Below, in pieces: positions 5,549-23,261 of a stretch of DNA of 64,000 nt. Positions within the stretch are counted from its first letter, which is position 1; each line of letters begins with the position of its first letter. The stretch is taken from the NCBI RefSeq assembly GCF_032118995.1, contig NC_092651.1:15749349-15813348 (forward strand), given 5' to 3'. A program made the translations under genes and the position numbers. Origin of the DNA: Asterias amurensis. Lineage: Eukaryota; Echinodermata; Asteroidea; Forcipulatida; Asteriidae. Below the pieces are notes generated by a model that worked only from the letters and a program-made list of their open reading frames with translations, did not search any database and was not told where the DNA came from.

Positions 5549-8500
5549 TTACTTAATAAGAATTTCGGTAGCATCAATAAAACCTCTCTTAAATTCCTCC
5601 TCGGAGAAACGCCCGACCGATGCCCTAGCATTCCTTTGGATCTCCATCTGCTCCTCGTCACTCATTCTAAGGATCTTTTCAAAGGCATCAGCGTAGCTCA
5701 TCACATCGTCAGCAAGGAACCCCGTGGGTTTGCCATCAAAGTCAATGACAATGTCCATCATTGGTCCTCCTGAGTTGTGTGCCACGATAACTGTACCTGC
5801 TGCCATGCACTCAACCACACCTGTACAGAAAACAATTAGAAAATATGGCTTTGTTTGCTATCCATGTCAAATAAGCTGAATTTGTGTTGCTACGACCGTA
5901 TCCTAGTTATAAACCAAACATTTGCCCCAGATTCTTCCGAGACAAAAGCCCTGTGGTCTGGTGGCCCTGCTTCTCCATATCACTTCGAGAATTATTTACA
6001 CTCCTTCACCTACATTTTGATATGGCTTCTCTTGACACAGAACAACAAGAATTGTTTTTAATTGAGAAAATTGTACTGACCCATAGGGATTCGAAGAAAG
6101 CACACTCATCTTCTTTTCCCTGACAATGGTGTACATGCTTTATTCGGTCAAAATAAATATGGGGGTGGAAAATCAAATATAGGATAGACTAGGGGGCCTT
6201 TCTCAAACCTTGGCTTGGGCTCTGGCTTATACTTAGGCTCCGCGCGCTGCGTTACACATTGGAAACGCAACACGGCCTTTAACCTGCGTATTGCACACGG
6301 TAGTTTGAACATCAGCAGACAGAGCCTGGAGCCTAAGCCGGAGCCTGGGATGGATTTCACATAGAGTTAAGACTAGTCTTATCTCGAGTTAGGACAAGTT
6401 TCTCCTCCTAACTTAATAGGACTAGCCTTAAAGGCAGTGGACACTATTGGTAATTACTCAAAATAATTATTAGCATAAAACCTTACTTGGTAACAAGTAA
6501 TGGGGAGAGGTTGGTAGCATCAAACATTGTGAGAAACGGCTCCCCCTGAAGTAGAGTACTTTTCGCGAAAGAAGTAATTTTCCACAAATTTGATTATGAG
6601 ACCGCAGATTTAGAATTTGCGGTCTCGAAATCAAGCATCTGAAAAGCACACAACTCCATGTGACAAGGGTGTTTTTTCTTTCACTATTATCTCGCAACTT
6701 CGATGACCGATTGATCTCAAATTTTCACATGTTTGTTATTTTATGCATATGTTGAGATACAGCAAGTGAGAAGACTGGTCTTTGACAATTACCAATAGTG
6801 TCCAGTGTCTTTAAGTTTTTAATATCTCCTAGGACTAGCCCCAAATTCTTTGTGAAATCGACCCCAGCAATCATGGTTTCTTTGCAATGACAATACCTAC
6901 CAATGCCAAAGTGTTCATTCCACATGGTATGTAGCCCAATGGTGGCAGCAGACAAGTGCTCTTTGAGATCTTCGAATGAGATGTTCAGCAAAAAGTCCAC
7001 ATTGGCGCGTATATTGTGGTCCTCGCAAAGTTCCCGCAACGCATCCACACGGTCTGCATCGTCTTTATTTCGACAGCTCCCAATGAGTTCAAGTTTCAAA
7101 TTTTGCCTCTCTTCCATCGGGAGCCGTTTTAAGAGCTCAAAGAATGCTTCTACTTGTAATGGGTGGTTTTTCTCAGGACGGAACTGAGCTATGGAAACAA
7201 TCACCTGTTTCTTCTTTCCAGCTTTTGAGACCAAAGGTTTTTTTCGGAAGGCGTCTGTATCACAGGGTGGATACACTATGCTTGTTAGAGCTGGTATCTT
7301 CCAGATGCTTTGGATGTGACCGTTTGTCCACGATGAGTTGACCATCACAGCATCACTGCGTGCGCCCATAATTCCATATAGGTATGCAAACATATGGTAG
7401 TAGATCACCTTCAAGAAACTGAGGACACGGCTTCTGGCAACAAAACCTGGGTTGTTGTACGTGGCTGTGCGCTGGGTCACCCTGGTCAGCATGTCAGTGC
7501 TGATAGTGGGATAGTGCACATAACAGCCAACCTTACATAGACCGAGATACTTGAAGAGCGGCAACGTAAAGGCATAACCCATGGAGTCAATGTATACATC
7601 AGGTACACAGTTTATCAAAGCTTCCCATCCCAGTATCATAGACCCGAGGCTCTGCCCAAGAAGAGTGAAGTAGGGGTATGTCGATGCCTCAACAAGGTGG
7701 CGCTTTTTCAGAAACACAAATTCCACAGGTTTAGTGATGCTGATGTTGAAGCGTTGCTTTGCTTTTTGTATAATTTCTTCACCTCTCACGTCACTGTCAC
7801 CGGTATACACCAAACACTTCACAAAGGAATATCTAGAAGAAAAGTCAAATTAATGTGTTAACAATTGCAGTTAATTTCAGAAGGTTGGTAAGAATGACTA
7901 GTTAATAATAATAATTATCAGTTTTTATAAAGCGCTTTTCACACCTAAAAAGGGGTCTCAAAGTGCTTCCAACATTATCACCTCTGGTCACTGGGCCATT
8001 TAATACATTCCTCAAACCATCTCAGCTCCCTGTGGAGTATACAGCCGTGTGCAACAAATATGCGTTACTCGGCTAAATCAATCACAAGAACCATCTCTGC
8101 CCTCACAGGTACACATTTACCCCTGGGTGGAGAGAAGCAATAATAGCTAAGTGTCTTGCTCAGGGACACGAGTCACGACCGTGACTTGAACCCACACTCT
8201 GCTGAACAGAAGCACCAGAGCTTCAGTTCAGTACTCTTATCCGCTCGACCACGACACCCTACAACACCTTATTACATTAAAAAAATATGCTTTAGTAGCA
8301 ACAACTACTTTTTCAGCAAGCAATGCGATGAAAGGGACAAGCCAAGCCACACAGATTGACTAAGTGTTTTTAAAAAGTAAACAGTATAAAATTTTATAAT
8401 CCTAATGCTGAATTTCAAAACAAAAATTAATCCCTTCAACAAAAATTACATTTAAAATTTTTGTTTTGTTTTTAAAGTAAACTAGGTTAAAAAAGATTGT

Positions 8501-9573
8501 AAGACCTATTGTTTTAAACTTATCTGGACAATGCTTAGTATGTCCTGTGTATAACTCATTATAATTTTTCCCATCACCCCCATGGGTACAGCACAATTTT
8601 CACAATAAGGTTATTGAATTGCTTTCAGATGTCTATATATCAGGCTTCAGGTCTGAAGTCTATTTATATGCGAGTGAGAAATTACCTCTTTCTCAAAACT
8701 TTCTTACTTCAGAGGGAGACGTTTCTCACAATGTTTTAAACTTTCAACAGCTCTCCATAGTCAAGACCAAGTAAGTTTTAATGCTTTAAGTATTTACTCA
8801 TAGTGTCCAGTGCCTTTAAGTACAGGTTCAAATATTTTGTTAAAGCTTGTGGTTCCTTCATTCAGGCAAGAAACATCAAATCAGGCATGCTAAACAGGGC
8901 TCAATATTACAGAGCTTCTTTAAGCAGAAAAAGTATCAAAGTGCAAACAGAGTTTTGCTTACCAGAGTAAGTTACAAGCCAAAACATGTAGCGTGTACAA
9001 TTTGTGACTGGCTGGTGTCCTGCTCATCTCTGCTTAGCACAAAATGTTTTTAAAAGCAATGTTTTTTGCTTTTGAAAGCAGCTCTGTGAATTTAGCCCTG
9101 GACCAAATTTCATGGAGCTGTTTAAGCACAAAAAGTAGCTGACCACAACAAAATGTTGCTTACCAGAATAAGGTTACCAGCTGAGCTACCATGTAGTTAC
9201 AGGTAGAGTTTATGACTGATATCCTGCTCATTTCTGCTTAGCAATAATCTTGCCTAAATGCAGCTCAATGAAATGGGGCCCTGGTTGGAGCTCATCACCT
9301 AGGGTTGGGATGACTTGTCAATGTTTAATACCTGTCTTGCAGAGCAGCAATAGCACACCATAAAACCCTCTCACCACCACCTCCGGCATTACAGTACGGA
9401 TGGAAAAACCCCACCACAATCGGCTGTTGTCCATCACTGCCTGGCTCCCTCAGGTGGCCAAACTGGAGTCTCCCTTGGTGCTGGACTCTCCGCCTCAAGA
9501 AGTAGAAGAGTAAGATCCCCAGGGGGAGGAACGGCAATAACACAAACAGCATTGGTGTAAGTAGACCTAGCAT
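5549..9573 (-). CDS. ALG11: GDP-Man:Man3GlcNAc2-PP-dolichol alpha-1,2-mannosyltransferase
   Basis: Adds the fourth and fifth mannose residues, from GDP-mannose, to the lipid-linked N-glycan precursor on the cytosolic face of the ER. Exons are 9573-9332, 7832-6901 and 5820-5549; they join in frame (phases 2 and 1) to 481 aa, close to the roughly 490-aa human protein. Exon 1 encodes an N-terminal membrane anchor ([20 protein letters not shown]) and the [20 protein letters not shown] signature. Exon 2 carries [54 protein letters not shown] and [13 protein letters not shown]. Exon 3 gives [19 protein letters not shown], the GT4-family donor-binding end. All family motifs look intact. Intron 1 holds a SINE, a MITE-A fragment and MITE-F copies; intron 2 holds a MITE-E split by a MITE-A. 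Confidence 0.97.
6164..6345. repeat. Imperfect foldback in ALG11 intron 2
   Basis: GGCTTGGGCTCTGGCTTATA and CTTAGGCTCC on the left mirror GGAGCCTAAGCCGGAGCCTG on the right, around a GC-rich centre with GCGCGCTGCG. It ends where the MITE-E begins. No copy of this exact unit was found elsewhere in the window. Confidence 0.5.
6348..6865. mobile_element. MITE-E copy 1, interrupted by MITE-A
   Basis: Left half (6348-6431) starts TGGATTTCACATAGAGTTAA and contains GACTAGTCTTATCTCGAGTT. Right half (6811-6865) ends TTCTTTGTGAAATCGACCCC. Between them a complete MITE-A (6432-6810) is inserted at a TTAA that is duplicated. Without the insert the element is about 140 bp. Confidence 0.8.
6432..6810. mobile_element. 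MITE-A copy 2, nested in MITE-E
   Basis: 379 bp flanked by TTAA at 6428-6431 and 6811-6814. Ends are AGGCAGTGGACACTATTGGT and the complement of TAGTGTCCAGTGTCT. It carries the family's central inverted repeat (GAGACCGCAGATTT / AATTTGCGGTCTC). This gives a clear order of insertion: E first, A later. Confidence 0.88.
7905..8262 (-). repeat. tRNA-derived SINE, full length
   Basis: On the minus strand it begins GGGTGTCGTGGTCGAGCGGA (tRNA-like, A-box TGGTCGAGCGG). It has a B-box-like GGTTCAAGTCA, then CCTGAGCAAGACACTT, and ends AAGCGCTTTATAAAAACTGA followed by ATT repeats at 7908-7919. The head resembles a Ser/Leu-type tRNA. It lies in ALG11 intron 1 in the same orientation as the gene. A head-only copy is at 38030-38160. 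Confidence 0.85.
8625..8815. mobile_element. MITE-A copy 3 (half element)
   Basis: Keeps the right arm: TTCAGAGGGAGACGTTTCTC, ACAATGTTTTA and the terminal TAGTGTCCAGTGCCT followed by TTAA (8816-8819). The left end is lost or too diverged to place. Confidence 0.65.
8870..9283. repeat. Two adjacent MITE-F copies
   Basis: The copy at about 9090-9283 runs from GACCAAATTTCATGGAGCTG to CAGCTCAATGAAATGGGGCC and is palindromic, with AGCACAAAAAGTAGCTG and CATTTCTGCTTAGCAATAAT arms. A more decayed copy (8870-9080) with GTGTCCTGCTCATCTCTGCT precedes it. Both are in ALG11 intron 1. Confidence 0.65.
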
Positions 9574-10289: not shown

Positions 10290-10437
10290 TAGACCCAGTG
10301 ACTGGGGCGCTAGATTCCTTTTTTCCCGAAATTTTGACATTATCGGTCATTGCTCCATGGTCATCTAGACTAGATGACCGATAATGTCGACATTTCGAAA
10401 AAAGGAACTAGCGCCTCAGTCACTGACACTGTGTCTA
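10290..10437. mobile_element. 148-bp foldback element with 9-bp target duplication
   Basis: The arms pair over nearly the whole length: TAGATTCCTTTTTTCCCGAA with CGAAAAAAGGAACTAG, and ATTATCGGTCAT with ATGACCGATAAT. The centre is TCATCTAGACTAGATGA. The tips are TAGAC and GTCTA. It is flanked on both sides by the 9-nt direct repeat GAAAAGCGC (10281-10289 and 10438-10446). An 8-10-bp duplication is typical of Mutator-like and Merlin-like transposons; without a transposase the superfamily is open. Confidence 0.85.
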
Positions 10438-10490
10438 GAAAAGCGCACTGAGTGAATAGACTGGGTAAATTTTCAAAAAAAGTCAACCCC

Positions 10491-10742
10491 GAAGGCAAAT
10501 TGTGTTAATTTATGGCATACAAGTTTTTTAGGGGTATTGAGGGGTGCTGAGCTCGAATTTGCTGTATGCCAAGCTCAAAAATGTCCCATAATGCCTCAAA
10601 ATCCCAAAATCCAAGATGGCCGCCACTGACGCGTTAAAATACAGTTATGTGCATATCTTTTTTACTGAACAAGGTAGAAACTTAAATTAAATGTCCTTCT
10701 GTAGGTTATCATGTATGGGGAATCCAATGCAATCAACAATTT
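10491..10742 (+). repeat. Left inverted repeat core of the 6.3-kb transposon
   Basis: 252 bp beginning GAAGGCAAATTGTGTTAATT and containing CAAGATGGCCGCCACTGACG. The same length occurs inverted at 16433-16684, with CGTCAGTGGCGGCCACCTTG, a single visible difference. Confidence 0.92.
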
Positions 10743-10814
10743 CATAATAAAATGTGAAGAAATTTATTAAAACGAATATTTAATGCAAAAAAATTGGTTT
10801 TTTGGTAAAAATTT

Positions 10815-10860
<46 letters not shown>

Positions 10861-11257
10861 CAGTACATTAATCCTAAGTATCCCGGGATAACTTACTTAC
10901 CTTTCAGGTGTCTGTTAGGCAAAAAAATATATGTGGAATAATTGACGTGCCAACTTTGCAATTTGGATTGCAGATATTATTGTATTATCAAATACGCCAT
11001 AATAAAATAAAATAACTAATGTACATGTAATGGATCAGAAAACCCCATTCGTTGTTGTTCATTAATATCCCAGGCCACACTTCCATCAGCTGACCTCCTT
11101 TCTTTCTTTTGTTGGCCTAGTTTAGATTGATTTGTATTACTTTGTAATATTATTTTACTCTGTAATACTTAGTATTACATTGTTTTACTACATGTTGTAT
11201 TGCCAACTCTTGTTAATGCAGAGTGTCTGAATTAATCTATCATCAGTAACTGACAAA
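10743..11257 (+). promoter_or_regulatory. Leader/promoter region of the transposon ORF
   Basis: Between the left arm and the ORF. It holds degenerate inverted-repeat sequence to 10818, a 40-nt poly-A (10819-10858) and AT-rich DNA. The start codon at 11258 has the context GACAAAATGG (A at -3, G at +4), a good eukaryotic initiation site. Confidence 0.45.
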
Positions 11258-14200
11258 ATGGCTGAAAGCACAGAACGCCCTCGAAAAAGACCAGTGGTAC
11301 TTGATCCAAAATTATGCATAATATGCCAGCAGGCTAGTAACCAAAAGCTTATGACTGTAAGCGGTGATGGTCTTCCTTCAGTCAATACTATAAGGCAACT
11401 CCGGTCAAAATTAAGTAATGACAATTTCCGTGAAGCAACTGATCGACTAACTGGTTTTTTTAGTACAGATTTACCTTCACCATTCTTGTGGCATAAGGAC
11501 TGCCGGTCTAGTTATATGAGTAAATGTAAAGTTGAAAGATTAAGGAATGCCGGTTTAAAGCAATGTTCGTCTGCATCCACATTAACTCATCAGCAAAATG
11601 TTAGCTTACGGAGCAAAATGCCTCAGATAGATTGGAGGCAGTGTATCTTTTGTCAAAAAGTTCAAAGTGAAACGCTTCATCTCATACAAGAAATGAAAGT
11701 CAGTAAAAGAATATTAGAAGCAGCAAAGTATGACCAAATCTTAAGAGTTCAACTAGCTTGTGTAAATGATCTTACTGCTGCAGATGGAACATATCACAGA
11801 AGTTGCATTGTCCAGTTCGAACGTAGGACCAAGCGCATAGCAAATATATCACCCCAGAGCTCAGATATTACCCTAGCATGGCTTTGCCAAGAACTTGAAC
11901 ATTCAGCAGAGCAAGGTGATATACTGGATCTCATCAGTGTGTGGGAAAGATACTGCACAATAGCTAGCAATGCTCAGATAGATATACCACCTTCATTTCT
12001 CAGTCGGAGGAACACATTCAAGGACAAAATAGCCGAACGTCTTGAGGGCTTATTTGAAGTTATTGTACTGCATGATCAGCCTAGAAATGAGCCCCGTACT
12101 GTATTGGTTCCGACAAAATTTCGGCATATTCCAGTATCAGCAATGGTGAAAGACAGCATCACCGATAAACTCATCCCGTCAATAAAACAAGAAGATACTG
12201 ATACATTCTTGACCATGGTTCACGTGGCATTGCAAATCCGTGGTGACATGTTGTCACATCCAAAGCCAGAAGGGATAGACATCAGCGAAGACAGGGCAAT
12301 AAACAGCATACCCGATAGCCTGTATATGTTTCTGAACTTGTTACTAGGTGGTCAGCGTCTACTGGAGGAGGATGAAATAGACGATGATAGGAATGAAGCC
12401 AGACGGCGGCTTAGAATCATCAGCATTGCTCAGGATCTTATGTACACAGCCAGTGGAGACAAGTTCCTCACTCCGAAGCATATAGGGTTGGCCAGTACCC
12501 TTCATCAAGCTACACGTTCGAAAGAGCTGGTGAACATGTTTCACAGCGCAGGTCATGTCATGAGTTATCGAGACGTAATCAAACTCGACACTGCCCTGGC
12601 AAAGAAGACATTAGAAACCATAGATGACGAAGGTTCCGTTGTTCCCCAAAATCTGGTTAAGGGACGCTACGTCCATTTCTCTACGGACAACGTGGACATT
12701 AATGAATACACTCTGGATGGAAAAGGAACCTTCCATGCCACTCAAGTGGCCGCCTGGCAACGTGGTCCACCTGAAGATGATATCCTCAATGGAATAGATA
12801 TTTCTAAGACAGGAGCAATCCAAATCCCTGAGGCAATGACTGACCTCATACCTGTATCAAACAGAGGAATTACGGAGCGTCCATTCAGCGGTCTGATTGC
12901 AGCCGATTGTTTCACACAGTCATCTGAGGATTGTCTTTCAGCACAGAAAGCGCACGCAACTGACATGGCGTTCATCTTATCGCGGTCGGCTCACAAACCA
13001 ATGCCTTCCTGGACATTGTACAATCAAAAGGCAAGCACTGTTAATCCTGAGAAAACTACAGTTGGGTACCTACCTATCATACAGAATCCTGCATCTGAAC
13101 TCGAAACATTGAACACAGTTGTTAAGCGAGTGCTTCATGTGGCCAAATCGATGGAACAAAAGCATGTTGTACTGACAGTGGACGAGGCACTCTACCCAAA
13201 GCTGCTTGAATTGAAATGGTCAGTAGAAGAGTACAAGGACGTGCTTATACCTTGCCTCGGAGGACTTCACATTGCCATGAACTTTCTTGGTGTAATAGGG
13301 CGACACATGAGTGAGTCTGGCCTGAGTGAGCTGTGGGTAGGGTGCGATCTTTTGGGAGCCAATGCTGCGCAGAATGTCATGAAAGGAAAGGGGTACGCAC
13401 GTGCCATCAGGACACATAAACTTACCCTTCAGGCCCTTTGGCAACTACTCCTCCCACGGTTTTATACGTACCTAGATGGAGTTGATGTTACCCTGAGAGA
13501 CGAACTCTCCAATGTCTGCACAACCATAGACGCTGACCACATTGCACAGATAGTAAACAAACTGACAACCGATAGATTTCAGCTACCCATGAAAGAGTTT
13601 CCGGCAGCTCTTGCAGTTGATGACCCGAATGCTGAATTCTGGTGGAACTATATGACCATGGTCAGCATCCTACTCTGCTTCACAAGAGCGCAACGTGATG
13701 GATCTTGGGATCTCCACCTATACGCCTTCAAGCGTATGCTGCCATTCCTCTTCAGGTACGATCATGTTAACTACGCCAGGTGGGGTACTGTATACTTGGC
13801 TGAGATGTCGGTTCTCCCACCAGAAGTCCTCCATGAGTTCCAAGAAGGCAACTTTGTAGTAAAACGGGCCGATCGACGCTTCAATCAGGTTTCAGCTGAC
13901 CAAAGTACGGAATGGCTAAACGCTACAGGAAAAAAGAGTGGAGGCCTAGTAGGTATCACAAGAATAGCATCCGCACTCAGTAGATGGACATTGTCATACA
14001 ATCTGAGAACATTCATAGCTTCTCAGACAAAAACATTGCTGAGCCTGACAATGGACGATGAAGACGATGAGTACACACATAATGAGTGCACCAAAAGCAG
14101 GATGGAGAAAGATGACACCGATGAAGGCAGACTTGTTGTATCAATGAAACAGCATGGCGTGTTTCAAGAGGGCGGTGGCACATTGAAGAACATAATCACC

Positions 14201-15865
14201 AAGGATGTGGTCACGCCTGTGATTCAAGAATCTCTGCTTAGTGCGGAAAACCTCGGACAGGCGCAAATGACAGTCTTCGTAAACAAACGTCTGTGTGAGC
14301 CTCCAGAAAGTAACCAGCACATGGATCTAAAATCACCCATTCCAAAAAATAATGCTAAGACATTTGCCTCGTTGTACGATGTTGTGAAACCTTCCAAAAG
14401 CAAGCAAAACACTATCAAAGTGGACAGGAACATTCTGCAAAGGCTTTTAACAGCTTATAAAGCGGGGCGTGAGGTTAACCTAGAAAACATCCTCAAGCAT
14501 GAACTTATGACCATCCCACTATCTTTGGCCACAACTAGTGGTAGTCTACATTCTACCAACAAGTCTGTGTTAGCAAACATTCTGACACAACAAGTCCAAA
14601 CTCCAGCAAATATTACACTCAATCAGCCCAGCTGCCTGCTTATTGATGGCCAAGCACTGGTAATGGCAGTCGGAAAGCCCCCTGGCATTAGAACGTTTGG
14701 AGACTTTGCCAACACATTTGCTAACACTGTGTTTAAGATGGGAGCAGAATACCAGAGGATCGACGTAGTCTTCGACAGGTACCAAGGAGAGTCAATCAAA
14801 GCAGGTACAAGGACCAAGCGGAAGCAGCGCCACCGTCCAGTACGACGTGTGATAGAAAATGAATCATCAGTTCCTCTCCCGTCAGACTGGTCCAGGTTCA
14901 TGGCTCTCGAGGAAAATAAAGCAGACCTCGCACAACTACTTTCAAACCACCTGATTGAATACAACCCGGCAGATAAACCAGTGGTTGTAGTAGCTGGGGG
15001 GTTCGCTGAAGCAACCACTGTCAAGTCATCTGATCCAGATCTTGAAGTCTCCTCTCTGAGAGCTGACCACGAAGAAGCTGATACCCGGCTGATTCTGCAT
15101 TGCATCCATGCTAATATGGAAACGATAGTTGTGTCAGTACGTGATACAGATGTGCTTCTTCTACTTCTAGCACATTATGACAGAATGGGATGTACATCTC
15201 TCTACATGAAAGCGGGGACATCGAAGGCTCCAAAGTATTTCCCAGTTCATGAAATTCGAAATCTGTTATCTCCAGATCTAGTGGACACACTACTTGCATT
15301 CCATGCTGTAACCGGCTGTGATAGTGTTTCTCAGTTTAGTTGTCACGGGAAGAAAACAGCCTGGAAGGTGTTCGAGCAGCATCACACTGATCTGATTGGT
15401 CTTGGCAAAGGCCCTCTCACAAAAGAAACCGCTATATCAACCGAGAAATTCATCTGTAAGATATATGGCGTCCCTAAAGTAGATACATGCAACAAAGCAC
15501 GAGTCAAGTTGTTTTGTATTGGTCGTGCACAAGAGACTCTGCCACCAACCTCAGATGCTGCAAAATATCACATCATGCGTTCACACTATCAAGCAAGTGT
15601 CTGGAATCAAGCACACTTGCCACATCCTGATCTTCCTCCAGTCACTGAAATGGGATGGATGCACCTGGACGATCAGTTAGTGCCACGGCTACTCTCTCTG
15701 CCACCTATCCCTAAAGCTTGCAGGGAGATCACCTCATGTGGTTGTTCAAAGGGGTGCCTTAGCCTGCGCTGCAGCTGCAGGAAAGCTCGCATGAAATGCA
15801 TCGAGGCGTGCAACTGCAGGAAACTTAATGACAACTGCCGGAACACCCATGACGACCAGGAATGA
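11258..15865 (+). CDS. Transposon-encoded 1535-aa protein: zinc modules, PIN/XPG-like nuclease, CXC domain
   Basis: Single uninterrupted frame. Residues about 20-82 and 129-184 each hold a CxxC...HxxxC pair (KLCIICQQ with WHKDC; QCIFCQKV with YHRSC), likely DNA-binding zinc modules. The middle (about 200-1100) is unrecognised and predicted alpha/beta. From about 1125 there is a PIN/FEN1-XPG-like fold: LLIDGQALVMAVG, VVFDRYQGESIKAGTRTKRK (positive arch-like segment), DHEEADTRLILH (acidic cluster about 1268-1279), VRDTDVLLLL (about 1292-1301) and AFHAVTGCDSVSQF (helix-hairpin-like). The C terminus (about 1486-1528) is a CXC cluster: CGCSKGCLSLRCSCRK then CNCRK. It probably acts as the transposase or its nuclease partner. 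Proteins with this tail are, from memory, multicopy in marine invertebrates. Whether the middle contains a DDE-type core is unresolved. Confidence 0.85.
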   Translation: MAESTERPRKRPVVLDPKLCIICQQASNQKLMTVSGDGLPSVNTIRQLRSKLSNDNFREATDRLTGFFSTDLPSPFLWHKDCRSSYMSKCKVERLRNAGLKQCSSASTLTHQQNVSLRSKMPQIDWRQCIFCQKVQSETLHLIQEMKVSKRILEAAKYDQILRVQLACVNDLTAADGTYHRSCIVQFERRTKRIANISPQSSDITLAWLCQELEHSAEQGDILDLISVWERYCTIASNAQIDIPPSFLSRRNTFKDKIAERLEGLFEVIVLHDQPRNEPRTVLVPTKFRHIPVSAMVKDSITDKLIPSIKQEDTDTFLTMVHVALQIRGDMLSHPKPEGIDISEDRAINSIPDSLYMFLNLLLGGQRLLEEDEIDDDRNEARRRLRIISIAQDLMYTASGDKFLTPKHIGLASTLHQATRSKELVNMFHSAGHVMSYRDVIKLDTALAKKTLETIDDEGSVVPQNLVKGRYVHFSTDNVDINEYTLDGKGTFHATQVAAWQRGPPEDDILNGIDISKTGAIQIPEAMTDLIPVSNRGITERPFSGLIAADCFTQSSEDCLSAQKAHATDMAFILSRSAHKPMPSWTLYNQKASTVNPEKTTVGYLPIIQNPASELETLNTVVKRVLHVAKSMEQKHVVLTVDEALYPKLLELKWSVEEYKDVLIPCLGGLHIAMNFLGVIGRHMSESGLSELWVGCDLLGANAAQNVMKGKGYARAIRTHKLTLQALWQLLLPRFYTYLDGVDVTLRDELSNVCTTIDADHIAQIVNKLTTDRFQLPMKEFPAALAVDDPNAEFWWNYMTMVSILLCFTRAQRDGSWDLHLYAFKRMLPFLFRYDHVNYARWGTVYLAEMSVLPPEVLHEFQEGNFVVKRADRRFNQVSADQSTEWLNATGKKSGGLVGITRIASALSRWTLSYNLRTFIASQTKTLLSLTMDDEDDEYTHNECTKSRMEKDDTDEGRLVVSMKQHGVFQEGGGTLKNIITKDVVTPVIQESLLSAENLGQAQMTVFVNKRLCEPPESNQHMDLKSPIPKNNAKTFASLYDVVKPSKSKQNTIKVDRNILQRLLTAYKAGREVNLENILKHELMTIPLSLATTSGSLHSTNKSVLANILTQQVQTPANITLNQPSCLLIDGQALVMAVGKPPGIRTFGDFANTFANTVFKMGAEYQRIDVVFDRYQGESIKAGTRTKRKQRHRPVRRVIENESSVPLPSDWSRFMALEENKADLAQLLSNHLIEYNPADKPVVVVAGGFAEATTVKSSDPDLEVSSLRADHEEADTRLILHCIHANMETIVVSVRDTDVLLLLLAHYDRMGCTSLYMKAGTSKAPKYFPVHEIRNLLSPDLVDTLLAFHAVTGCDSVSQFSCHGKKTAWKVFEQHHTDLIGLGKGPLTKETAISTEKFICKIYGVPKVDTCNKARVKLFCIGRAQETLPPTSDAAKYHIMRSHYQASVWNQAHLPHPDLPPVTEMGWMHLDDQLVPRLLSLPPIPKACREITSCGCSKGCLSLRCSCRKARMKCIEACNCRKLNDNCRNTHDDQE

Positions 15866-16432
15866 GTTCACGTGTGCACGTCTACATCTACTGCAGATAT
15901 GGTAAGCTCATGTAAATTACTCAAAGTTAAAGTCTTGCCATTGCTGTCGCTTTACAACAAAACTTGCATGTCAAATTTTGGTTTAGGTTAAAGTGTGTGT
16001 CAGTGTTACTTGGAGGTTTTCCACTTAAGCCAAATGATATATGCCCTTTTAACCAAATGAACTGTCTGTTTGTTTGTTGTTGTTGTTGTTCAGATGTGCT
16101 TCCTGTCAAGCCGTCTATGTTCCTGGTGAGGAAAAAGAGCGAAGAGCCTTCGGATCTTTGGTAGAAAAACTAACAATCTTCAGAGAACTGTTTGCATTAA
16201 ATACAAGTTTAAACCAGTTTCTTACAATGTTATCTCAAAACTGCTTCTGGCATTGGATTCCCTGTACATGATAACCTTAAATTAAATTTGGTTTTCTAAT
16301 CTTGTGTAGGACTCTTAGGATTAACCTACTGGGTTTTAAAAAAAAAATTATAATTAATGTAAATTTTTAACAAAAAACTTATTTTTTTGCATGAAGTGTC
16401 AGTTTTAATCAAATTCTTCACATTTTATTGTA
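15866..16432 (+). other. 3' untranslated part of the transposon
   Basis: No coding content is evident. Includes a GTT/TTG run (16070-16090) and AT-rich DNA leading into the imperfect inner end of the right inverted repeat (from about 16355). Confidence 0.5.
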
Positions 16433-16684
16433 AAATTGTTGATTGCATTGGATTCCCCATACATGATAACCTACAGAAGGACATTTAATTTAAGTTTCTA
16501 CCTTGTTCAGTAAAAAAGATATGCACATAACTGTATTTTAACGCGTCAGTGGCGGCCACCTTGGATTTTGGGATTTTGAGGCATTATGGGACATTTTTGA
16601 GCTTGGCATACAGCAAATTCGAGCTCAGCACCCCTCAATACCCCTAAAAAACTTGTATGCCATAAATTAACACAATTTGCCTTC
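16433..16684 (-). repeat. Right inverted repeat core of the 6.3-kb transposon
   Basis: Inverted partner of 10491-10742, same length, about one mismatch. Outside it 43 nt run to the tip, against 34 nt outside the left core, and these two outer segments do not match apart from the terminal 11 nt. Confidence 0.92.
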
Positions 16685-16730
16685 AGCACTTTAAATATGC
16701 ACATTTTGACAGTATGTACCCAGTCTAGAA

Positions 16731-17335: not shown

Positions 17336-17714
17336 ACCTAGAAAAGTATTAATTTGCTAAGCTGAGATTTTTCACCAGTGTGTTTTCTGTTTGTAAAATT
17401 GTTTCTTGAGTTGTTGTTTTTATGTTTTGTTTTCTTTTGTGCTTGAAAATTACCAGTTGTAGTGAGCCAACAGTTTCAATCTATTTCAGAAAATAATAAT
17501 AAAAGGGAAAATAGAAAGGTGACATGTCAACTGGAAAACAAACTGGACAAATATATTTGTATAATTAATTATGTTGATTCCTTTTATCCTTCTTTTTAGC
17601 CGCATTTAAATTTAATATTGGTTGAACCTTCTATCTCTGAAGGAGAGATAAACTGAAAGTATCTGCACTTTGGTTCTTTCTGGGCCAGAGACTGGGATTT
17701 TGATTTGAGGGTTA

Positions 17715-19222
17715 GGGGAGATGGACTAGTGATTATTCGCTGGGGGTGTGGCTGGTTGGATATGGGTATGGGCAATCTGGGTATAGATGACTGGGATTTT
17801 GATTTGAGGATGGAGATGTACTATATGTGATTGTTTTCTTGGGGTGGGGCTGGTTGGACATGGGTATGAGCAATCTGGGTATAAATGACTGGGATTTTGA
17901 TTTGAGGATGGAGATGTACTATATGTGATTGTTTTCTTGGGGTGGGGCTGGTTGGACATGGGTATGGGCAATCTGGGTATAGATGACTGGGATTTTGATT
18001 TGAGGATGGAGATGTACTATATGTGATTGTTTTCTTGGGGTGGGGCTGGTTGGACATGGGTATGAGCAATCTGGGTATAAATGACTGGGATTTCGATTTG
18101 AGGATGGAGATGTACTATATGTGATTGTTTTCTTGGGGTGGGGCTGGTTGGACATGGGTATGGGCAATCTGGGTATAGATGACTGGGATTTTGATTTGAG
18201 TATGGAGATGTACTATATGTGATTGTTTTCTTGGGGTGGGGCTGGTTGGACATGGGTATGAGCAATCTGGGTATAAATGACTGGGATTTCGATTTGAGGA
18301 TGGAGATGTACTTGTGATTATTTTGTTGGGGTGTGGCTGGTTGGACATGGGTATGGGCAATCTGGGTATAGATGACTGGGATTTTGATTTGAGTATGGAG
18401 ATGTACTATATGTGATTGTTTTCTTGGGGTGGGGCTGGTTGGACATGGGTATGAGCAATCTGGGTATAAATGACTGGGATTTTGATTTGAGGATGGAGAT
18501 GTACTATATGTGATTGTTTTCTTGGGGTGGGGCTGGTTGGACATGGGTATGAGCAATCTGGGTATAGATGACTGGGATTTTGATTTGAGGATGGAGATGT
18601 ACTATATGTGATTGTTTTCTTGGGGTGGGGCTGGTTGGACATGGGTATGAGCAATCTGGGTATAAATGACTGGGATTTCGATTTGAGGATGGAGATGTAC
18701 TATATGTGATTGTTTTCTTGGGGTGGGGCTGGTTGGACATGGGTATGGGCAATCTGGGTATAGATGACTGGGATTTTGATTTGAGGATGGAGATGTACTA
18801 TATGTGATTGTTTTCTTGGGGTGGGGCTGGTTGGACATGGGTATGAGCAATCTGGGTATAAATGACTGGGATTTCGATTTGAGGATGGAGATGTACTATA
18901 TGTGATTGTTTTCTTGGGGTGGGGCTGGTTGGACATGGGTATGGGCAATCTGGGTATAGATGACTGGGATTTTGATTTGAGTATGGAGATGTACTATATG
19001 TGATTGTTTTCTTGGGGTGGGGCTGGTTGGACATGGGTATGAGCAATCTGGGTATAAATGACTGGGATTTCGATTTGAGGATGGAGATGTACTTGTGATT
19101 ATTTTGTTGGGGTGTGGCTGGTTGGACATGGGTATGGGCAATCTTGGTATAGCTGACTGGGATTTCGATTTGAGGATGGAGATGTACTAGTGATTATTTT
19201 GTTGGGGTGTGGCTGGTTGGAT
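17715..19222. repeat. 98-bp minisatellite, about 15-16 copies
   Basis: The repeat unit contains GGGGCTGGTTGGACATGGGT, then CAATCTGGGTAT, then GACTGGGATTTTGATTTGAG. Variant sites (GAGCAATC with ATAAATGA versus GGGCAATC with ATAGATGA) mostly alternate, giving a 196-bp dimer pattern. Two units near 18300 and 19090 share an ACTTGTGATTATTTTGTTGG variant, as if a multi-unit block had been duplicated. Open frames on the minus strand are a by-product: 98 is not a multiple of 3 and frames rotate from unit to unit. Confidence 0.95.
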
Positions 19223-21787: not shown

Positions 21788-23261
21788 TTAACATCTTACA
21801 TTCTGATACACGGGGTTCTTGATGCTCTGTAAATCATCCATGTCTTCATAGGTACTGGAGACATCTTGTAAAGTCTTTTTGGATGACGGGACCTTGTAAA
21901 ATACCTTGTCACCTTCAAACTGTAACTCAACATTGCTGCCAGTCTTCACTGCGTTGGTTTGAACAATTTCCTTACTCGTAGATCTTTGCAGACGCTTGAC
22001 AATGAGGATGATGTTGAGGTTGACTGAGACAAGGAGAAGGAGAAGAGTGACCAGGAATGCGACAATCAAAGGGAGGGTAGATATCGATGAGGGGACCCCA
22101 TCAGCCTCTTCTTCAGAAGCGGTTGTACTTTTCCAAGACGCTGTGTGTTGTGATGCTGCTGTACTAATAGATGCATCAAGATGGTCTGTTTTTGGTTGGG
22201 TTGTTGTGCTTGGTGGTGTTGTGACTAGGAGGGCAGATATGGATGAGGTGTCATCAGCGTCTTCTTCAGAAGCTGTTGTACTTTTCCAAGACGCTGTGTG
22301 TTGTGATGCTGCTGTACTAATAGATGCATCAAGATGGTCTGTTTTTGGTTGGGTTGTTGTGCTTGGTGGTGTTGTGACTAGGAGGGCAGATATGGATGAG
22401 GTGTCATCAGCGTCTTCTTCAGAAGCTGTTGTACTTTCCCAAGACGCTGTGTGTTGTGATGCTGCTGTACTAATAGATGCATCAGGATGCTCTGTTGTTG
22501 GTCGGGTGGTTGTGCTTGATGCTGTCACAGGAGCCACGGTCGTTGGCACAGGAACCACAGTCACTGGACCGATGGTGCAAGTTCGTTCCATACCAGAGAA
22601 CCTTGATCCACTGGAGTTCATACTGCAGTCAAATGAAGAGCCATTATCAGCTGCTCCGACATTAACTAAGCGTCTCCAAATGTAATGGTTACTATTCTTG
22701 TGCCAAGTGTAACCCTCACCACTAGATAGAATATCTATGTTTACATTTGGTTTACCAATCTGAGAGGAACAATACATATATTTAGTCTTCCCTTCTTGTA
22801 CAGTAAAAGGACCCTTTGGACCGCAAGAGACTGATGGTGGAAAGTAGTGCACCCATATGAAGGACCCATCTGCAGCTAAACTGCCATTGTCTATCTGGCT
22901 ATGCACACTACACTGATAATACAGTGTCTCTGTTGATGCTTCTAATCGTGAGGACTTCAATCTTTGAACGCCTTGAAGTGTATGTTGTTTCAAGACTACA
23001 ACTTGGAACGATGCACTCTTCATTTCTTGTTATTTGCGTCATACTATCGCTGTAATATGCCCACCACTCCAGTTCATAACCAAACTGCATACCAGTAGCA
23101 TTACATCGTAATCTCACTGTGTCATCCTCCACTACATCACCAGTTGGTGATAATAATTGTACCTCGACAGTCAATCCATTCACACTGATGCAAAAGGTTG
23201 GAAATAAACCAAGCCAAATACACAGGAATAGTAGCTGTATGCAACAACACCCTCTATCCAT
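21788..23261 (-). CDS. Ig-domain, mucin-stalk single-pass membrane receptor (one apparent frameshift)
   Basis: Unrecognised family. The start at 23261 gives MDRGCCCIQLLFLCIWLGLF, a good signal peptide. An Ig-like domain follows (VRLRCNATGMQFGYELEWWA ... ETLYYQCSVHS), then a second cysteine-bearing Ig-like domain (VSCGPKGPFTVQEGKTKYMY to FDCSMNSSG). Next is a Thr/Ser-rich stalk of 51-residue (153-bp) repeats with HLDASISTAASQHTASWKST, a TM helix (LIVAFLVTLLLLLVSVNL) and a 60-residue tail with TYEDMDDL and the NPVY motif. The frame changes near 23020-23030, inside the first Ig domain, and no plausible intron fits there. It is therefore an assembly error, a polymorphic break or a pseudogene. It appears intronless. 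By architecture it could be an immune or adhesion receptor. Confidence 0.75.
22110..22560 (-). repeat. 153-bp in-frame coding repeats in the receptor stalk
   Basis: Two near-identical 153-bp units and a diverged third encode the Ser/Thr-rich stalk. Each holds GCATCAAGATGGTCTGTTTT (plus strand) and ends at an EEDADDTSSIS-type acidic segment. Homogenised units suggest copy-number variation of the stalk between alleles. Confidence 0.85.

Follow-up and report, generated by a model that had tools for sequence, protein, structure and literature searches.

A 64,000-nt stretch of the genome of the sea star Asterias amurensis (contig NC_092651.1, positions 15,749,349 to 15,813,348; "the window") contains an element of 6,271 bp at window positions 10457–16727. 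We consider it, with a probability of about 0.9, to be an autonomous, recently mobile DNA transposon of the Academ superfamily and of the nuclease-bearing AcademX kind, to which it is matched by description only. Three features of AcademX are found in it: a DDD/E transposase and an element-encoded XPG-like nuclease, both recognised in structure models, and a 3-bp target-site duplication. The element thus represents a new family within a lineage already known, not a new system. A preliminary description of the window had identified it as an apparently intact, Academ-like transposon, and the copies, tips and 3-bp duplication described below agree with that reading.

Ends and arms of the element

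The element is bounded by 11-bp tips (TAGACTGGGTA), identical at the two ends and inverted. The same three bases, GAA, stand outside both tips; they are the longest exact repeat adjoining them, and correspond to the Academ-type target-site duplication that had been anticipated. Two 252-bp inverted arms lie inside the tips, with a single mismatch at position 10616. The longest exact run common to both arms is 126 bp, as against ≤12 bp in 20 letter shuffles, and weaker similarity extends inward beyond the 252 bp to give 331 bp in total with 14 mismatches. The matching tips, the near-identical arms and an uninterrupted 1,535-codon open reading frame (ORF) had all been noted previously, and all three were found as claimed; the ORF has no internal stop and occupies the middle of the element. 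Between tips and arms (10457–10490 and 16685–16727) are stretches of ~23 bp on the left and ~32 bp on the right that are unlike each other. The long arms therefore do not start at the tips, and the two ends of the element are not equivalent; they might have different roles. These end-specific stretches are alike in all three full-length copies of the element (see below).

Full-length copies and recent movement

A search of the host assembly (491.5 Mb, 23 contigs) with the left end returned two further full-length copies, L009 and L010, both on contig C10. Compared pairwise, the copies diverge by 1.23%, 1.47% and 1.34%, and each copy has its own target duplication (GAA, CAC and TAA). The full ORF is intact in L009, and in L010 the frame is interrupted by insertions or deletions. 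For the two intact ORFs, nonsynonymous divergence (dN) is 0.0048 and synonymous divergence (dS) 0.0176, giving a dN/dS of 0.27; the two non-coding parts of the same pair differ by 2.4% and 2.7%. The low divergence between copies, together with this ratio set against the non-coding values, indicates that the family is recently mobile and that its protein is probably under selection. The family may still be active today. The "undescribed active system" of the preliminary description was too strong, because present activity is a matter of inference and the architecture fits AcademX as presented in published passages.

Domains of the encoded protein

Eighty homologues of the window protein were found at E ≤ 1e-3. 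Conservation was assessed in an alignment of 45 proteins, comprising the window protein and 44 of these homologues, with shorter ones excluded. A DDE transposase core is predicted in the middle of the ORF from the structure model. D477, D480, D642, H671 and E885 are invariant in 45/45 proteins, and the candidate catalytic residues are D477 or D480, D642 and E885. The Pfam family DUF6589 matches residues 591–889 of the window protein with an E-value of 5.9e-6 and 25.7 bits, below its cut-off of 27, and three of six scanned homologues (P0006, P0049 and P0063) pass that cut-off, which suggests that DUF6589 overlaps the DDE core; the family is not mentioned in the literature searched. Pfam and PDB sequence searches with the whole protein gave no match, nor did PDB profile searches with protein pieces A3 and A4. 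Foldseek returned no match to the N-terminal model at E ≤ 0.001; a second structure aligner gave matches mainly over residues 199–286 and 388–932. KDZ transposases are not among the latter matches, which says nothing against KDZ kinship.

The same polypeptide is predicted to carry a FEN1/EXO1-like nuclease downstream of the DDE core. A FEN1/XPG-type nuclease had been proposed from acidic motifs, with a structure lacking that fold as the finding that would count against it; the model did show the XPG/FEN1 fold. Six acidic residues of this domain (D1130, D1173, D1275, D1296, D1298 and D1355) are invariant in all 45 proteins, and position 1273 has E in 41 sequences and D in the other four. We take these acids to correspond to the catalytic acids of FEN1.

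Cysteine-rich modules lie at both ends of the protein. All eight ligands of the two N-terminal zinc modules are invariant in the alignment, and each of the nine cysteines of the C-terminal CXC-type cluster is present in 44 or 45 of the 45 proteins. The earlier assignment of this cluster to the tesmin/TSO1 type stands in part: the nine-cysteine CXC-type arrangement is there, but the window protein scores 13.8 and 16.5 bits against Pfam TCR, below the cut-off of 23.5. TCR matches at E ≤ 1 were obtained for 8 of 13 fragments, the best at 6.2e-4. The zinc and CXC modules occur throughout the family and so set no lineage apart, contrary to what the preliminary description had suggested.

Table 1. 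Features of the element and its protein, in window coordinates
Feature	Position	Strand	Remarks
Left target-site duplication	10454..10456		GAA, 3 bp
Left tip	10457..10467	+	TAGACTGGGTA
Left long inverted arm	10491..10742	+	252 bp; weaker similarity on to 10821
Uninterrupted ORF	11258..15865	+	1,535 aa, transposase-nuclease protein; ATG 11258, stop 15865
First CxxC...HxxC module	11315..11503	+	residues 20–82 (C20, C23, H79, C82); putative zinc ligands
Second CxxC...HxxC module	11642..11806	+	residues 129–183 (C129, C132, H180, C183); putative zinc ligands
Possible winged-helix DNA-binding domain	11849..12121	+	residues 198–288
DDE (RNase H-like) transposase core, predicted	12464..14053	+	residues ~403–932, with helical insert
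FEN1/EXO1/XPG-type 5' nuclease domain, predicted	14558..15643	+	residues 1101–1462
CXC-type nine-cysteine cluster	15707..15850	+	residues 1484–1531
Right long inverted arm	16433..16684	-	252 bp; weaker similarity inward to 16354
Right tip	16717..16727	-	TAGACTGGGTA, inverted
Right target-site duplication	16728..16730		GAA, 3 bp

Related families in the same genome

A protein search of the genome gave at least 40 matches, merging into at least 25 loci; both counts are lower bounds, with 30 of 133 candidates scored. Six further loci (L059–L064) were retrieved for end analysis. Two pairs among them are nearly identical, L059/L060 at 99.6% over 6.6 kb and L061/L062 at 99.76% over 7.0 kb, each pair standing for a further Academ-like family; these families either moved recently as well or were duplicated along with their surroundings. 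Target duplications were surveyed in nine elements, i.e., the three full-length copies and the six further loci. L060 runs into N on the left, and for L063 neither end was located. All seven elements with both ends readable have exact 3-bp duplications (GAA, CAC, TAA, TTA, TAA, TAA and TAA), four of them in the related families, and all seven tips start with TAG. For the related families, tip positions were assigned by visual inspection of the junctions, guided by the first family, and then checked, so these four are less independent than the first three.

The Academ-like loci are unevenly distributed. Contig C10, which makes up 4.6% of the assembly, holds at least 13 of the 25 (e.g., L009, L010 and L063), against an expectation of 1.1; among the candidates scored, those on C10 lie mostly at 7–10.5 Mb.

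Beyond the three full copies, 30 places in the assembly match the outer 170 bp of the element over some or all of that length, and 18 of these (L011–L028) were retrieved. In 15 of the 18, an exact Academ tip is preceded by near-identical sequence that is not Academ; L025 has the same preceding sequence with an altered tip, and L017 and L023 have no tip. Since near-identical non-Academ sequence stands before the tip in 16 of the 18, we rejected the reading of these places as small non-autonomous offspring of the element. Judging by their sequence, they are copies of a Helitron-like repeat carrying a captured Academ end. This repeat has in its interior ~170 bp derived from the left end of the Academ element (e.g., L013, with the Academ tip at 768), and 8 of 16 scanned copies have a CTAG-ending motif, mostly after a hairpin and followed by T every time. 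Only 2 of the 30 captured-end places are on contig C10.

Homologues in other animals

A profile built from ten homologues gave 230 matches at E ≤ 1e-5. Hosts were named from the best 120 of these, most of which carry no host name. Among the matches listed, named hosts include Porites, Apostichopus, Coilia, Uroleucon and Frankliniella, and the molluscs Mytilus, Mercenaria, Mya, Patella and Littorina; the named relatives thus come from corals, molluscs, a fish, a sea cucumber, an aphid and thrips. One match is labelled as a bacterial bin, Sedimenticola, and is taken as host DNA inside that bin. Scans of genome-contig and viral-contig collections returned no relative. In a quick tree of 33 proteins (the window protein and 32 chosen from 198), there are two deep clades with Porites proteins in each; one clade includes a pair of coral proteins whose sister is a fish protein, with a Shimodaira–Hasegawa-like approximate likelihood ratio support of 100. 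The presence of Porites in both clades and the coral/fish sisters fit mobile DNA that does not track its hosts. This cross-host pattern would fit horizontal transfer or old paralogy, and the tree favours neither.

Alternative explanations

The assignment to Academ is made from published descriptions of the group, and the nearest solved folds to the DDE core are those of the P element and Hermes. Both points would suit an element of another DDE superfamily (hAT, P, KDZ or Transib) that had gained an XPG-like nuclease outside Academ. Target duplications are 8 bp in hAT, P and KDZ and 5 bp in Transib, lengths that we give from general knowledge, and the exact 3-bp duplications in seven of seven readable elements match neither. 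For this reason we did not adopt membership of any of these superfamilies. AcademX elements, by contrast, are described in the available passages as having a nuclease and duplications of 3–4 bp. We therefore consider an origin outside Academ very unlikely.

It is harder still to credit that transposition is carried out by the XPG/FEN1-like domain, through flap-nuclease chemistry, while the middle region is only structural. In the model the fold of that region is DDE-like, D477, D480, D642 and E885 are invariant, and we know of no strand transfer by FEN1-type nucleases. We give almost no weight to a domesticated host gene of transposase and nuclease ancestry lying between old terminal repeats, even though the single long intact frame and a dN/dS below 1 between two intact copies would be expected of one. 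The preliminary description had named a single-copy host gene as what would speak against a transposon; the ORF has further copies in the genome. There are three full-length copies with identical tips, 1.2–1.5% divergence and differing 3-bp duplications, the two arms within the window copy are identical but for one base in 252, and the relatives are spread patchily over phyla. Domestication was rejected because several copies have different target duplications. A recently mobile AcademX-type transposon remains our preferred explanation.

Possible mechanism of transposition

The domains of an AcademX-type protein such as this one could be assigned the following roles. The ends and arms of the element would be bound by modules at both ends of the protein, namely the zinc modules and winged helix on the N-terminal side and the CXC cluster at the C terminus. 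The DDE core would pair the ends, free their 3' ends and join these to the target with a 3-bp stagger, as its fold, the invariant acids and the duplications suggest. The 3-bp duplication would then arise from gap repair by the host. The fused 5' nuclease would most likely act on 5' strands or flaps, either cutting or trimming the non-transferred 5' strand or clearing flaps during excision or repair. A more speculative reading is a one-protein machine that combines two metal-dependent nucleases of unrelated kinds: the 3' transferred strand would fall to the P/hAT/RAG-like DDE core, and the other strand would be cut or trimmed by the fused FEN1/EXO1-like 5' nuclease. We put this reading forward tentatively and think it has perhaps less than an even chance by some distance; to our knowledge, such a division of strand work between two nucleases has been demonstrated for no cut-and-paste transposase.

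If true, the two-nuclease model would explain why duplications differ among Academ lineages with different partner enzymes. The passages of literature consulted gave no answer on the role of a fused flap nuclease in Academ transposition. With a near-intact AcademX-type element, a second intact copy, exact ends, duplications and domain models, this role is directly testable. Apart from the nuclease question, the element is an ordinary transposon find.

Surroundings of the element

Exons of the ALG11 mannosyltransferase lie at window 6728–9573 on the minus strand (ALG11_N, E-values of 8.4e-74 and 4e-14), and the element is ~0.9 kb upstream of the first recognised ALG11 coding ORF, which starts at 9573. 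This neighbour, the DDE-like core and the two sister copies are additions to the preliminary description. About 30 bp to the left of the element is an imperfect palindrome (10296–10425; arms of 28 and 30 nt, 86–87% complementary), perhaps a small fold-back transposon. About 1 kb to the right is a tandem array of a 98-bp unit (17690–19221; 15.7 copies, 94% matches). Further to the right, a 411-aa ORF on the minus strand (21788–23023) contains threonine/serine-rich repeats with a 153-bp unit, and has weak, below-cut-off matches to LAT2 and C2-set immunoglobulin.

Comparison with known systems

The 5' nucleases FEN1, EXO1, XPG, GEN1 and XRN have the same fold as the nuclease domain in the model and the same catalytic acid set. 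However, they are host repair or RNA-decay enzymes, whereas here the domain is part of a transposon protein and is 8–16% identical to them in the aligned part. The P element, hAT (Hermes) and RAG1/Transib transposases resemble the DDE core, which is only 7–15% identical to theirs in the aligned part, and we know of no fused flap nuclease in any of them. Described Academ proteins have a C-terminal cysteine motif. The AcademX lineage of the Academ superfamily is reportedly the subject of Kapitonov and Jurka (2010) and Kojima (2020). Among the papers listed for Academ and its sub-names, none was seen to describe the present element, which is no proof of absence.

Academ is counted among the DDD/E superfamilies in the part of PMC9587614 available. 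According to passages of PMC10045372, duplications are 3 or 4 bp in AcademX and 9–10 bp in AcademH, lengths which that source ties to the encoded nuclease and helicase, respectively. AcademH is of the same superfamily and has a DDE transposase, but it encodes a helicase and makes 9–10-bp duplications; the window element has 3 bp, and Pfam scans, run on the entire protein and on its four pieces, detected no helicase family. In passages of PMC10294476, the mean Academ consensus length is 5,565 bp, and Academ is reported as common in bivalves and sparse among the remaining molluscs; relatives of the window protein include bivalves plus two gastropods, Patella and Littorina. The closest likeness is to AcademX, with a DDE core and an XPG-like nuclease in the models, 3-bp duplications, an element of ~6 kb, and relatives in molluscs and corals.
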